Made by a program: the position numbers and the translations under genes. Shown here piece after piece: positions 52,230-57,610 of a stretch of DNA of 64,000 bases. This DNA comes from Halorarum halophilum (GTDB lineage: Archaea; Halobacteriota; Halobacteria; Halobacteriales; Haloferacaceae), in the NCBI RefSeq assembly GCF_013401515.1, contig NZ_CP058529.1, positions 1,984,001 to 2,048,000 of the forward strand, in the 5' to 3' direction. Within the stretch, counting starts at the first letter, position 1. Each line of letters opens with the position of its first letter. The notes under the pieces were generated by a model. It did no database searches and was not told the origin of the DNA. It worked only from the letters and a program-made list of their open reading frames with translations.

Positions 52230-53243
52230 TCACTCGGCGGTGTCTCCCGATCGCTCCGCGTCGACGGTTCCGACGTCGGGTGCCGGCGCGTCGCTCCCGA
52301 CGCGCTCCCTGAGTTTCCCCAGGACGACGCAGCCGACGTAGATCGCGACGGCGATGAGGACGATGACGCCCCCGGCGGTCGCCTCCGCGTAGTAGGAGAC
52401 GCCGATCCCGAGGATGACCGCCAGTTGGGCGAGGACGATCGACGCGAGCAACGACTGGGAGAAGCTCCGAGACACCTGCGTGGCACCGGCGACGGGTACG
52501 ACGAGCATCGCGGCGACGAGGATGACGCCCATGATCTGCATGGCGCCGACCACCACCAGCGCGGTGAGCATCACCATCACGCGGTTGTACCAGCTGACGG
52601 GGATCCCGGAGACCTCCGCCGCCACCTCGTCGAACGTGACGTACAGCAACTGGTTCCGAGTGACAGCGACGGTCGCGACGATTACGCCGAACAGGACGAG
52701 CAGGATGGCGGCGTTCTCCGCGGACACCGTCGCGAGGTTTCCGAACAGGTACTGGTTGATACCGACCGCGAGTCCGCCCGCGTTGAGGCTGATGAGGACG
52801 GTGCCGAGCGCGAACCCCGTGGACAGCACGATCGCCATCGAGACGTCGTTGTAGGCGTCCGTGTGCTCCGAGATGAGTTCGATGAACAGCGCCGCGATCA
52901 CCGCGACCACGACCGCCGAGAGATAGGGGGAGACGTCGAGGTTCAGCACGGCGTTGACGAACAGGCCGACGGCGACCCCCGCGAAGGCGGTGTGGGCGAG
53001 CGCGTCGCCGATGAGCGCGAGCTGCCGGTGGACGAGGAACGTCCCGATGAGCGGGGCCATCACTCCGATACAGAGTCCGACGAGGATCGCCCGGTGCATG
53101 AACGGGTACTGGAGCAGTTCGAGCCCCGTCACCGCGGCCAACCGGAACATGAGTTCCGACCACAGGGAGAGAACCCAGTACAGCGGCGCGAGGAACGGCT
53201 CGATCGGACTCGCCTGGAGCGGTAGAGCCTGCGTCCCGGTCAC
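52230..53243 (-). CDS. Zinc/manganese-type ABC transporter permease (ZnuB/MntB family)
   Basis: 337 residues with eight to nine helices. Conserved segments are FMHRAILVGLCIGVMAPLIGTFLVHRQLALIGDALAH, then ALGTVLISL, then FDEVAAEVSGIP (loop contacting the ATPase) and MQIMGVILVAAMLVVPVA. The C-terminal 40 residues are acidic and disordered. It builds the membrane channel of a metal uptake system with the ATPase encoded at 53240, whose stop overlaps this start by four bases (ATGA). Zinc, manganese or ferrous iron are all possible ligands. Confidence 0.92.
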   Translation of the reverse strand: MTGTQALPLQASPIEPFLAPLYWVLSLWSELMFRLAAVTGLELLQYPFMHRAILVGLCIGVMAPLIGTFLVHRQLALIGDALAHTAFAGVAVGLFVNAVLNLDVSPYLSAVVVAVIAALFIELISEHTDAYNDVSMAIVLSTGFALGTVLISLNAGGLAVGINQYLFGNLATVSAENAAILLVLFGVIVATVAVTRNQLLYVTFDEVAAEVSGIPVSWYNRVMVMLTALVVVGAMQIMGVILVAAMLVVPVAGATQVSRSFSQSLLASIVLAQLAVILGIGVSYYAEATAGGVIVLIAVAIYVGCVVLGKLRERVGSDAPAPDVGTVDAERSGDTAE

Positions 53244-54031
53244 GAGGAATCACCCACCACCCTCGCGGACGTCCCGAACGCCCGCCCGACCGCGTCGCTT
53301 TCGACGAACTCGTCGGTCGACCCGTCGAAGTAGACCTCCCGGTTGAGACAGACGACGCGCTCGGCGTGGTCGGTGACCGCCCCGAGGTCGTGCTCGATCA
53401 GCAGGATCGTGATCCCGTCCGCGTTGAGCGCCTCGAGCAGGTCGTAGAACGCGTCGACCGACTCGACGTCGACGCCGACGGTCGGCTCGTCGAGCACGAG
53501 GAGGTCCGCCTCGCTGGCCAGCGCTCGCGCGATGAACGCCCGCTGGCGCTGCCCGCCGGAGAGACGAGTGACGCGGCGGTCCGCGAACGCGGCCATCCCG
53601 ACGACGTCGAGGGCGTGATCGACGATCCGCCGGTCCTCCTCGGAGAGGCGGCCGAAGCCGACGTGGGGGAACCGTCCCATCTTCACCACCTCGCGGACCG
53701 TGATCGGCATCTCCTTCGACGCGCTCGCCTCCTGGGCGACGTAGCCGATGCGCGCGCCGTCGTCGAACGTGCGTGCCGGTTCGCCGAACAGCCGGGCGGT
53801 GCCTTCGTCCGGACGGAGGAGTCCGAGCATGAGCTTCATCAGCGTCGACTTCCCCGACCCGTTCGGGCCGACGACGGCGACGTACTCGCCCGCGTCGATC
53901 CGGATCGAGACGTCCTCGACGACCGGCGTCGCGGTGTAACCGAAGTCGACGTCTTTCAGTTCGATGACCGCGTCCGTCGACGCGGCGTCGATCGATTCCG
54001 TCTCCGTGTCGGTGGTCGTGTTCATCTCCAT
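53240..54031 (-). CDS. Zinc/manganese-type ABC transporter ATPase (ZnuC family)
   Basis: 263 residues. Walker A GPNGSGKS, the Q loop YVAQEASASKEMPITV, the ABC signature LSGGQRQRAF, Walker B LLVLDEPTVGVD and the H loop LLIEHDLG are all present. A Thr-rich acidic tail of 20 residues precedes the domain. It energises metal import with the permease at 52230 and the binding protein at 54033; the gap to the binding-protein gene is a single base. The ATP-binding core is of normal ZnuC length. Confidence 0.93.
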   Translation of the reverse strand: MEMNTTTDTETESIDAASTDAVIELKDVDFGYTATPVVEDVSIRIDAGEYVAVVGPNGSGKSTLMKLMLGLLRPDEGTARLFGEPARTFDDGARIGYVAQEASASKEMPITVREVVKMGRFPHVGFGRLSEEDRRIVDHALDVVGMAAFADRRVTRLSGGQRQRAFIARALASEADLLVLDEPTVGVDVESVDAFYDLLEALNADGITILLIEHDLGAVTDHAERVVCLNREVYFDGSTDEFVESDAVGRAFGTSARVVGDSS

Positions 54032-54032
54032 C

Positions 54033-55100
54033 TCACTCGAAGTTCCGCCACTGCTCGTTCCAGCCGTCGGGACCGGCGTCCTCGGGCGACGTGTTCCCGA
54101 GGACGATCTCGAACGTCGGCATGTTGATGTTGTACGCGATCTCCTCGTACCCCCAGTCGTTCTCGACCCAGTCCTCTCGGACGCCCGCGTACGGAGTCAC
54201 CGGGTAGTACCCCTCCACCGCGGTCTCGGCGACCAGTTGCTTTGCAGGCCGCCGCGTCTCGAACACCCCCGCGCCGACGTACTTGATGTCGTTCTCGTCG
54301 ATCACCCGCTTCGCCTCGGCGATGTCGGACGGCTTCACGTCCCCGCTCGCGGCGAGGTTGGTGACGAGCGGCCTCATCCGGACGCCGTAGCGGACGCCGA
54401 TGTACTGGAAGGCGTTGTGCGCGGCCAGCTGCACCACGTCCCGACTCGCCTTCTCGAAGATCCGTTCGTAGTCTGCGTCGATGCGGTCGAGCACGTCCGT
54501 CTTGTACGAGGAGGCGTTGTCGCGGAACGCCCCCTCGTGTTCGGGAAGGAGTTCGACGAACCCCTCCGTGATGTTGTCGACGGACTGGGCGGCACGCCGG
54601 GGATCCAGCCAAAAGTGGGGGTCCTTGCCGCGACCCTCCCCGACGCCCTCCTCGTCCGGGTCCAGGCTAGCGGCGAGCGACACGAGTTCGACGTTCTCGC
54701 GGACGTTGATCAGGTGAGTGTCGACGTCGTCGTCCTCGAGCGTCCGGATCGCCCGGTCGGCCCACGGCTGGAAGTCCTCGCCGACGTGGACGAACGCGTC
54801 CGCCTCGATGATGTCCCGCGTGACGCTCGCGTCCGGCTCCCAGCCGTGACCGTGGAGGCCGGTCGGGACCAGGTTCTTCACCCGCAGGGGCGTTCCGTCG
54901 GCGATCTTCCGGGCGAAGTCGTAGAAGCTGAAGAACGAGGCCACCGCGACCGGGTCGTCGTCGTCCGTCGCCCCCGAGGCGCCGACACGGCTGTCGCCGA
55001 GACAGCCGGCGGCGCCGACGGCGAGGACGCTGCCGGCGGCAGCGAGCGTTCGACGACGCGAGCACCGGGGTCCTGTCCCCGCGTATGGATCGTCGCTCAT
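54033..55100 (-). CDS. Zinc/manganese-type ABC substrate-binding lipoprotein (ZnuA family)
   Basis: 355 residues. The signal is Tat-like (SRRRTLAAAGSV) with lipobox GAAGC. The cluster A-I domain has metal-binding His residues in GLHGHGWEPDA, in KDPHFWLDP and in LAAHNAFQYIGVRYG, with a fourth acidic ligand expected after VFETRR. ADAFVHVGEDFQPWADRAI is also typical. The family's His-rich loop is short and acidic here (DPDEEGVGEGRGKD), which points slightly to manganese rather than zinc. It is the first gene of the operon. A hairpin and a palindrome lie in its upstream region. Confidence 0.9.
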   Translation of the reverse strand: MSDDPYAGTGPRCSRRRTLAAAGSVLAVGAAGCLGDSRVGASGATDDDDPVAVASFFSFYDFARKIADGTPLRVKNLVPTGLHGHGWEPDASVTRDIIEADAFVHVGEDFQPWADRAIRTLEDDDVDTHLINVRENVELVSLAASLDPDEEGVGEGRGKDPHFWLDPRRAAQSVDNITEGFVELLPEHEGAFRDNASSYKTDVLDRIDADYERIFEKASRDVVQLAAHNAFQYIGVRYGVRMRPLVTNLAASGDVKPSDIAEAKRVIDENDIKYVGAGVFETRRPAKQLVAETAVEGYYPVTPYAGVREDWVENDWGYEEIAYNINMPTFEIVLGNTSPEDAGPDGWNEQWRNFE

Positions 55101-55160: not shown

Positions 55161-55186
55161 TGCCCAACCCGCAGCCGAACCAAATT

Positions 55187-55202
55187 ATTAGACTCATCTA
55201 AT
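55187..55202. promoter_or_regulatory. Palindrome in the znuA-like / multicopper oxidase divergent promoter
   Basis: ATTAGA-CTCA-TCTAAT is a perfect inverted repeat with a 4-base spacer in the only AT-rich part of this 312-base region. It has the same 6-4-6 architecture as the 52.1 kb operators but different arms. It overlaps the probable promoter of the metal ABC operon and may also influence the oxidase gene. Confidence 0.55.
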
Positions 55203-55412
55203 TCTCTGTTTGTCCCCACCATACAAATACTATTCGTTCAACTTAACCACGGTTCACAGGCGTGCGCCGACGAGCGCTCGGGGAGGTGATCGACACGTGA
55301 CATTTGGGCGATACCGTCGAGAAATGGCCGTTCAGCCCCGCTCTCCAGTCTTTCTCGGATCCCGGGAACCGTCTCCACTTCATATGTTCTCGGCCGTCCG
55401 AGATGAACCTGT

Positions 55413-56555
55413 ATGACGAGCGAAATCGGCGCTCCCGGCGACGGCATCTCACGACGACGGTTCCTGGCGGCCTCCGGGGCGGTCGGCGTCTCCGCGGCGG
55501 CCGGCTGTGTGACGACCTCGCAGCCGACGGTCTCCCGGGTCGATACCGGTGCACAGGCGATGACGAGCGACCTCCCGACCACTGGTAGGCCCGAGGTGGT
55601 CGACCTGGCCGAGCGCGACTACGAGGTGACGCTGAAGGCGGTGTCGGCGGTCCACCACGTCCACCCGGGCGAGACGATGAACGGCCCCATCACGCTCCCG
55701 GTCGTCTGGGCCTGGCAGGCCGACGACAGCACCCCCTCGGTCCCCGGTCCGGTCCTGCGCGTCGAGGAGGGCGCGGAGTTCAACGTCACCCTCGACAACT
55801 CGGGGATGGACATGCCCCACACGTTCCACGTCCACGGCCTCCGCAAGACGTGGGAGAACGACGGCGTCCCGACGACGACCGGCGTCACCGTCGGCCCCGG
55901 CGAGACGCACACCTACGAGTTCACCGCGAACGTGGCCGGCACCCACCTCTACCACTGCCACTACCAGACGCCCCGGCACATGGACATGGGGATGTACGGG
56001 ATCCTCCGCGTCGAGCCGGAGGGATACGAGCGCGCGGACAGGGAGTACTACATGACGGTGAAGGAGTGGGACACCCGGCTCTCCCGCCAGTACGGCGGCG
56101 AGGACGTGGGCTACGACCTCACCAGCCGGGGGATGGACACGTTCACCATCAACGGGAAGTCCGCGCCCGCGACGTTCCACCCCGAGACGGGGTCGCCGAT
56201 CGTCGTCGAACCCGGCGACACCGTCAGGCTCCACTGGGTGAACGCGGGCTTCCACAGCCACCCGCTGCACCTCCACAACCACCGGTTCCGGGTCGTGGAG
56301 AAGGACGGGTCGGCGATCCCGGAGGGGATGCAGCTGATGCAGGACGTCGTGAACGTCGCCCCGGCCGAGCGCTACACGGTCGAGTTCGAGGCGGACGCGG
56401 ACCCCGGCATCTACCTGATGCACTGCCACAAGGTGGACCACGTCCGCAACGGCTCCTCGTACCCCGGCGGGATGCTCTCGGCCGTGGTGTACACCCCGGT
56501 GATGGACACCGACCTCTTCCGGCAGGTCATGGCGTACGCCGGCTACGAGGCGTGA
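55413..56555 (+). CDS. Two-domain multicopper oxidase (laccase-like)
   Basis: 380 residues. A Tat signal (SRRRFLAASG) with lipobox-like AAAGC directs export. Domain 1 (about 60-205) has HTFHVHG (136-142) and HLYHCHYQTPRHMDMGM (178-194), with Cys182, His189 and Met194 as possible type 1 copper ligands. Domain 2 (about 206-370) has HSHPLHLHNHRF (281-292) and MHCHKVDH (336-343), with Cys338, His343 and Met354. The four His-x-His blocks should form the type 2/3 trinuclear site between subunits, as in trimeric two-domain laccases. A type 1 site in both domains would place it in the A type. The next gene encodes a halocyanin, a likely electron partner. Confidence 0.9.
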   Translation: MTSEIGAPGDGISRRRFLAASGAVGVSAAAGCVTTSQPTVSRVDTGAQAMTSDLPTTGRPEVVDLAERDYEVTLKAVSAVHHVHPGETMNGPITLPVVWAWQADDSTPSVPGPVLRVEEGAEFNVTLDNSGMDMPHTFHVHGLRKTWENDGVPTTTGVTVGPGETHTYEFTANVAGTHLYHCHYQTPRHMDMGMYGILRVEPEGYERADREYYMTVKEWDTRLSRQYGGEDVGYDLTSRGMDTFTINGKSAPATFHPETGSPIVVEPGDTVRLHWVNAGFHSHPLHLHNHRFRVVEKDGSAIPEGMQLMQDVVNVAPAERYTVEFEADADPGIYLMHCHKVDHVRNGSSYPGGMLSAVVYTPVMDTDLFRQVMAYAGYEA

Positions 56556-56557
56556 CC

Positions 56558-57610
56558 ATGTCCGGGCACACCGACGGCGCACCCGGACGGGGCTCCGGGT
56601 ACACCCGACGGACGGTGCTGGCGGGGACGGGCGCCGCCCTCGGGGCGTGCCTCCTCCCCGGGCAGGTCCGCGCGGCCGGCGAGGACCCGACCGACCTGAC
56701 GGAGTGGTTCGCCGACACCGACGGCGCGACGGAGGTCGTCGACGAGCGGGGCACGGACGCCGTGACGGTCGCCGTCGGCGTCGACGCCAACGGCGGGGCG
56801 TTCGGGTTCGGCCCGCCGGCGGTCCGCGTCGACCCGGGGACAGAGGTGACCTGGGAGTGGACCGGCAACGGCGGCAGCCACAACGTCGTCGCCGAGGACG
56901 GCTCGTTCGGCTCCGAGTACGACGACGCGGCCGGAACGACGTTCGCGTACACCCCCACGGAGTCCGGCGTAATCCGGTACGCCTGCGCCCCGCACAAGGC
57001 GATGGGGATGCGCGGCACGCTGGTCGTCGGCGACGCGGCGGTCACCTTCCCCGGTGGGGCGACCGGCGGCGACGCCGAGACCCCGACCGGGACGCCCGAG
57101 CCGGAGCAGTTGGGTCCGATGCGGTCGTTCGACGGCTGGCTCGACGGGACGAGCAACTACCGGGGCGTGGCCGACCGCCGCGGCGAGGCCGAGGTGACGG
57201 TGAAGGTCGGCGCGACGGGCAACGGCGGCGAGTTCGCGTTCGAACCCGCCGCGGTTCACGTCGACCCGGGAACGGTCGTCCGCTGGGAGTGGGTCGGCAC
57301 CGCCGGTGCCTACGACGTCGTCGATCCGGCGCTCGGTTACGCGAGCGAACAGGTCCAGGGGACGGGGAAGACGTTCGCGCTCCGGTTCGACGGCGACGGC
57401 CTCTCGAAGTACGAGTGCACGGAGTACGGCGACCAGGGGATGCGGGGCGTCGTCCTGGTGGGCGAGGGACCGGTCGGGGAACTGACCTGGCGGGGCGTCG
57501 GCGCCGCCGCCGGCGTCGCCGGCCTGGTCGCGGCCCCCATCGCGCTCGGCGTCAGGTACCACTTCGAGAACGTGACGGGCGGGGGCGGCCCCGACCGCCC
57601 CGAGAGCTGA
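56558..57610 (+). CDS. Membrane-anchored protein with two halocyanin domains
   Basis: 350 residues, starting two bases after the oxidase stop. A Tat-type signal (TRRTVLAGTGAALGA) starts it. Halocyanin domain 1 (about 55-158) has full type 1 copper ligands: His108 in GGSHNVV, then Cys143, His146 and Met151 in YACAPHKAMGMRG. Domain 2 (about 205-302) aligns closely but has Tyr252 in place of the first His (GAYDVV) and Tyr290 in place of the second (YECTEYGDQGMRG); Cys287 and Met295 stay. So only domain 1 should bind copper normally. A C-terminal helix (312-332) anchors it facing outward. It likely carries electrons to or from the oxidase. Confidence 0.9.
   Translation: MSGHTDGAPGRGSGYTRRTVLAGTGAALGACLLPGQVRAAGEDPTDLTEWFADTDGATEVVDERGTDAVTVAVGVDANGGAFGFGPPAVRVDPGTEVTWEWTGNGGSHNVVAEDGSFGSEYDDAAGTTFAYTPTESGVIRYACAPHKAMGMRGTLVVGDAAVTFPGGATGGDAETPTGTPEPEQLGPMRSFDGWLDGTSNYRGVADRRGEAEVTVKVGATGNGGEFAFEPAAVHVDPGTVVRWEWVGTAGAYDVVDPALGYASEQVQGTGKTFALRFDGDGLSKYECTEYGDQGMRGVVLVGEGPVGELTWRGVGAAAGVAGLVAAPIALGVRYHFENVTGGGGPDRPES

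Follow-up and report, generated by a model that had tools for sequence, protein, structure and literature searches.

What remains of a blue-copper domain once both of its histidine ligands have given way to tyrosine, and what could such a domain do beside a multicopper oxidase (MCO)? The question is raised by two genes of Halorarum halophilum that lie within a window of 64,000 nucleotides, the whole stretch of DNA analysed here. An initial annotation of this window described an MCO encoded next to a dual halocyanin whose first cupredoxin domain (D1) is regular and whose second (D2) has lost both His ligands, and it considered the pair a candidate for an undescribed system. Few metal sites in biology have been studied as much as the ligand sets of cupredoxins. 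A literature search, in which subscription papers were mostly outside the scope, found no report of cupredoxins with a His-to-Tyr exchange or of ligand-less cupredoxins.

The MCO-halocyanin gene pair

The two genes share one strand (Table 1), and two bases separate the stop codon of the MCO from the start codon of the halocyanin, as initially annotated. Pfam searches identified two Cu-oxidase domains in the MCO and Copper-bind in the halocyanin. Each N-terminus has a twin-arginine signal, in line with the proposed Tat-dependent export of both proteins. Gene starts at MCO-halocyanin loci were based on homologue alignment; codon-based gene finding placed several of them late.

Table 1. Positions of the gene pair, its domains and the neighbouring importer in the window
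Feature	Position	Strand	Description
MCO	55413..56555	+	380 aa; two-domain; Tat signal and lipobox-like AGC (Cys32)
MCO domain 1, Cu-oxidase_3	55737..56021	+	residues 109-203; Pfam, conservation and codons
MCO domain 2, Cu-oxidase_2	56115..56456	+	residues 235-348; Pfam, alignment to 3g5w/2zwn and conservation
Dual halocyanin	56558..57610	+	350 aa; Tat signal, two cupredoxin domains, C-terminal membrane helix
Halocyanin D1	56753..57031	+	residues 66-158; T1 ligands His108/Cys143/His146/Met151
Halocyanin D2	57188..57463	+	residues 211-302; plastocyanin fold, Tyr252/Cys287/Tyr290/Met295
Tyr252 codon TAC	57311..57313	+	first His-ligand position of D2
Tyr290 codon TAC	57425..57427	+	second His-ligand position of D2
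Halocyanin C-terminal membrane helix	57488..57574	+	residues 311-339; predicted model, pLDDT 49-66
ZnuABC-type importer	52230-55100	-	ABC-3 permease, ATPase, ZnuA-type binding protein; Pfam; family scores leave metal undecided

The multicopper oxidase

Each MCO domain contains a complete set of type 1 (T1) copper ligands, consisting of His136, Cys182, His189 and Met194 in domain 1 and of His283, Cys338, His343 and Met354 in domain 2, where Met354 is located just past the Pfam match. The trinuclear-site histidines are His139, His141, His181 and His183 in domain 1 and His286, His288, His337 and His339 in domain 2. Both T1 sets and all eight trinuclear-cluster histidines are kept in every aligned haloarchaeal homologue, which bears out the earlier suggestion that both domains have T1-type ligands. 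Among solved structures, the closest relatives by sequence, the blue copper oxidase of N. europaea (3g5w) and a metagenome laccase (2zwn), resemble the MCO in their two-domain layout, in the T1-type ligands of their first domain and in the pattern of trinuclear-site histidines, but carry Asp at the position of Cys338. With Cys at this position, the MCO has a full second T1 ligand set.

Type A two-domain MCOs are defined by a T1 site in both domains, and their criteria include the trinuclear His set, a homotrimeric assembly with an inter-subunit trinuclear site, and copper in both T1 sites (PMC13151041). Judged from its sequence, the MCO has the ligand pattern of type A, with one T1 set per domain and the full trinuclear His set; a solved structure with this pattern was not found among its closest matches. 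The single-chain structure model, obtained from six sequences, had a pLDDT of 47. In six orthologues, Ala28, Ala30, Gly31 and Cys32 are invariant and provide a lipobox-like ..AGC after the twin-arginine signal. The MCO is therefore probably a lipoprotein.

Assignments to other copper enzyme families were rejected. The MCO scored 65.9 bits with the model of the copper nitrite reductase NirK (TIGR02376) against an equivalog cut-off of 296.3 (true NirKs in related loci scored 373 and 419), and it was far under the NCBIfam cut-offs for the CueO, laccase and CopA equivalogs. An MCO orthologue (E<=1e-80) was found in 236 of the 392 haloarchaeal genomes that were sampled. Some orthologues adjoin a single-domain halocyanin and others no halocyanin, and a halocyanin is thus not an obligatory part of the MCO operon.

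The halocyanin and its second domain

The TIGR03102 halocyanin model matches the protein in two stretches with 221.7 bits (cut-off 93.8). D1 has the His/Cys/His/Met set that was initially annotated and that is present in every dual halocyanin examined. In D2, inspection of the codons confirmed Tyr at both His positions together with the retained Cys287 (TGC at 57416) and Met295 (ATG at 57440). Since these residues differ from the T1 set found in D1, D2 is classed as a cupredoxin-fold domain and not as a blue-copper domain. The fold itself is retained, as had been proposed: D2 was predicted with a pLDDT of about 90, and its model matches plastocyanin 1bxu with a Z score of 13.9 and an rmsd of 1.4 over 89 residues. 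The C-terminal helix is consistent with a membrane anchor. Overall, the protein resembles the TIGR03102 dual halocyanins in both stretches, the Tat signal, the membrane anchor and the D1 ligands, but it differs from them by the absence of both histidines in D2, by a new and conserved Tyr/Asp/Tyr/Arg signature and by a charged face.

Conservation of the tyrosine-type domain

The pattern Y-x-C-x2-Y-x3-G-M-x-G was matched in 36 of the 392 genomes. Inspection of the loci identified a Tyr-type D2 in 25 genomes from 8 genera and 5 families, including the genome of the window; the other matches comprised five genomes with the motif of loci L130 and L133, described below, and six at loci elsewhere. 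Named carriers are Halogeometricum pallidum, Halorarius litoreus, Halorarius halobius, Haloglomus halophilum, Halomarina sp. BND7 and Haloprofundus sp. MHR1, some of which may duplicate other sampled genomes, as L135 and L110 are identical and L159 and L106 nearly identical. In 24 of the 25 genomes the Tyr-type halocyanin is encoded immediately downstream of an MCO orthologue, and in the remaining one beside a truncated MCO. At L131:6394-7704 the Tyr-type halocyanin is intact, and only the last 98 residues of the upstream MCO were found.

Tyr252, Cys287 and Met295 are each present in 33/33 Tyr-type rows and Tyr290 in 32/33, with a single member having His at position 290. The derived D2 residues Asp256 and Arg296 are both conserved in 33/33 rows. 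In 23 non-redundant rows, D2 contains more invariant columns than D1 (30% vs 23%) and has a higher mean identity (0.672 vs 0.644). The dN/dS ratio of D2 was 0.06-0.34 in 13 close pairs, and that of D1 was similar. Across the 23 rows, four ligand-loop positions are 5% hydrophobic and 55% charged in D2, compared with 67% and 23% in D1; in canonical D2 domains, the same four positions by the old copper site are 58% hydrophobic. According to these residue frequencies, the hydrophobic electron-transfer patch around the old D2 copper site has turned charged.

A random mutation, which the initial annotation had considered, would have left the pair unconserved or the relatives with normal histidines. 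Because the same D2 is found in 25 of 392 genomes, the tyrosines do not reflect chance, and on the evidence of the alignments they constitute a selected variant. Conservation, dN/dS and the well-modelled plastocyanin fold indicate that D2 has been kept and changed and is not decaying.

Lineage, origin and other ligand losses

In a halocyanin tree that was built with the two ligand columns removed, the Tyr rows belong to one well-supported group (97/96; 99/96 in a second tree). On the best tree, this group also contains the halocyanin of L132, which adjoins NirK and has kept both D2 histidines. A constraint tree in which only the Tyr rows make up the clade was not rejected (p-AU 0.199). Thus, a single origin of the Tyr state is allowed but, given the placement of L132, not proven. 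The main subclades of the MCO tree are found again in the halocyanin tree, which agrees with co-inheritance of the two genes. The Tyr group of the MCO tree includes three MCOs whose partners are of the His type, and the data therefore also contain either an exchange of partners or a misplaced long branch.

None of the 14 dual halocyanins encoded beside NirK has a Tyr ligand in D2, and their alignment shows that the first His is kept in all 14. For some NirK-linked halocyanins, pattern reading had pointed to Tyr as the first ligand, but in the alignment these residues occupy other positions. Both combinations, MCO with Tyr-type halocyanin and NirK with His-type halocyanin, are found within a few kilobases of each other in L101 and L136. 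Since NirK-linked D2 domains are devoid of the Tyr ligands and both types coexist at these two loci, the Tyr state follows the MCO-linked lineage.

D2 ligands have also changed elsewhere. Two NirK-linked dual halocyanins (L174:4301-5431 (-) and L176:4223-5353 (-)) have His/Cys/Gly/Met in D2, and an independent ligand loss resulted in Leu/Cys/Tyr/Met in L130:6137-7333 (+) and L133:7636-9819 (-), where the neighbouring MCO belongs to the same family but is more distant (60.8% identical). The genome from which L101 derives (G145:C1) has an equal MCO score and the motif at both 12063 and 2933399, at the two ends of one contig, perhaps because of terminal redundancy of the assembly.

Gene neighbourhood

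The initial annotation had linked the pair to the adjacent metal importer through the oxidation of Mn, Fe or Cu. The importer genes are divergent to the pair, and among the sampled loci an importer near the pair recurs weakly in L095 only, with a binding protein that is 37% identical; it was not found in the other sampled loci, including L094 of the same genus. Following this survey, the coupling to the importer was dropped, and no evidence was found for any of the three metals as a substrate. Between the importer and the MCO, positions 55178-55211 of the window contain an A+T-rich imperfect inverted repeat with TTAGA-CTCA-TCTAA, which resembles a metal-regulator operator and is putatively assigned to the importer.

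Other neighbours are confined to parts of the sample. In L110-L113 and L135-L137, which form one subclade, the upstream region encodes a DUF7521 protein and divergent regulators of the HTH_10 and HTH_20 types. In L110:6165-7419 (-), these divergent genes encode HTH_10, HTH_20 and a small DUF7521 membrane protein, a trio that recurs at MCO and NirK loci. In one genus (L108, L109, L115-L118), Gluconate_2-dh3 and GMC oxidoreductase genes are located upstream of the pair on the same strand, for example at L115:5449-8903. They are directly upstream in L108, L109, L115 and L117, and a gene on the opposite strand intervenes in L118. Together with the pair, these proteins possibly constitute an extracellular dehydrogenase-to-oxidase chain in which the dehydrogenase is the source of electrons. 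In Halomarina sp. BND7, L158:2630-7993 contains two radical-SAM/RiPP sets (Htur_1727 and CGCGG families) and DUF2249 genes near the Tyr-type pair.

Comparison with known copper enzyme-cupredoxin systems

Operons of an MCO and a halocyanin/plastocyanin have been reported in Haloferax mediterranei (PMC11218638). Compared by their parts only, these strongly regulated operons combine similar components to the pair of the window, but they encode an extra TM protein. In view of these operons, the description as an undescribed system was too strong; the novelty lies in the Tyr/Cys/Tyr/Met domain and in the lineage that carries it. A halocyanin has also been suggested as electron donor of NirK (PMC8301774), and in haloarchaeal NirK-halocyanin pairs or fusions the gene of a copper enzyme likewise adjoins that of a halocyanin or is fused with it. 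These systems differ in that NirK has no trinuclear site and in that none of the 14 linked dual halocyanins carries Tyr in D2. In L181:4482-5939 (-) and L182:4608-6104 (+), NirK and a C-terminal halocyanin domain are combined in one polypeptide that is above the cut-offs of both TIGR02376 and TIGR03102. By analogy, these fusions show that copper enzymes with two domains can have a halocyanin as their dedicated partner. Structural matching of the two cupredoxin domains of the halocyanin model returned among the top matches 9cck, an MCO of N. maritimus with a tethered C-terminal cupredoxin domain; different from the pair of the window, oxidase and cupredoxin are part of a single polypeptide.

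Possible functions of the pair

We favour, at about an even chance, a membrane-attached copper redox pair outside the cell, in which an O2-reducing MCO is served by a dedicated, anchored halocyanin with D1 as electron carrier. Copper occupancy, the direction of electron flow, the MCO trimer and the docking role of D2 are parts of this reading that we infer. The MCO, a putative Tat lipoprotein with two T1 sites and one trinuclear site, would reduce O2 to water, and electrons would pass between the normal blue-copper site of D1 and one of the T1 sites of the MCO. D2, which lies between D1 and the membrane helix, would have lost its T1 copper, its former copper pocket being filled by the Tyr pair, and its charged face would act as a dock or spacer that positions D1 against the MCO trimer. 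The docking or structural role, already suggested by the initial annotation, is plausible because the hydrophobic electron-transfer patch has been lost. Counting against a metal-free D2, Cys and Met are invariant although a domain without metal has no obvious need for them, and a residual site in D2 is therefore possible. That Tyr/Tyr/Cys/Met form a new site which evolved specifically for the two-T1 MCO, either by binding a metal (Cu(I), or Fe or Cu with a novel geometry) or as a metal-free redox relay, appears rather doubtful.

The residual ligands could also indicate that D2 is a Cu(I) loading domain or chaperone, in which Cys and Met bind copper shielded by the tyrosines and pass it to the MCO or to D1. 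The invariance of Cys287 and Met295 in all 33 Tyr-type rows, the survival of Cys and Met in the independent losses leading to Leu/Cys/Tyr/Met and His/Cys/Gly/Met, the charged face in place of an electron-transfer patch, and copper P-ATPases near some MCO orthologues without adjacent halocyanin would fit this role. However, canonical domains show the same invariance of Cys and Met, which folding could explain, and copper-transport genes do not recur beside Tyr-type loci in the neighbour survey. We know of no Cys/Met/Tyr chaperone with a cupredoxin fold, and we consider such a function unlikely.

The proximity of NirK or NOR to the MCO (<=8 kb in L101, L114, L136, L123, L125, L126 and L164) raises the question of whether the pair serves denitrification or the handling of nitric oxide. 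Under denitrification, the MCO and halocyanin/plastocyanin operons of Hfx. mediterranei are increased by 3 to 7.7 log2 and ZnuABC by 4.3 to 4.6 (PMC11218638), an induction that would favour this role if those MCOs belong to the subfamily described here; HTH_10 regulators, of the kind named in the same study, are divergently upstream in one subclade. Yet NirK is absent from the genome of the window and from 12 of the 24 other Tyr-type genomes, and the NOR query had no match in the genome of the window. These genomes without NirK weaken a strict role in denitrification, and we regard the proposal as quite improbable.

D2 could also provide a second electron step, by a new metal centre (e.g., Fe(III) or Cu(II) bound by Tyr/Cys/Tyr/Met) or by a metal-free Tyr/Cys hopping relay; in favour of this, the four side chains are jointly conserved and accompanied by the new invariants Asp256 and Arg296. 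However, the oxygen of Tyr is farther from the backbone than the N-delta of His in T1 sites, and the geometry of a metal in D2 would therefore have to change. In addition, the electron-transfer patch is gone, and the member with His at position 290 indicates that the Tyr pair is not strictly required. Such a second step seems very improbable to us.

Oxidation of Mn, Fe or Cu by the MCO on behalf of the importer would fit their divergent arrangement, but the importer is on the opposite strand and near the pair in the window and in L095 only, which makes this proposal exceedingly improbable. Decay of D2 after duplication would agree with the repeated loss of His ligands in dual halocyanins but is contradicted by a constraint equal to that of D1, by dN/dS and column conservation, and by Tyr, Cys, Met, Asp and Arg residues conserved across five families, and is hardly credible.

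Concluding remarks

With Cys, Met and a new residue signature fixed across families and tyrosines in place of both histidines, the clade is a natural experiment on the capabilities of a blue-copper fold that lacks its histidines.
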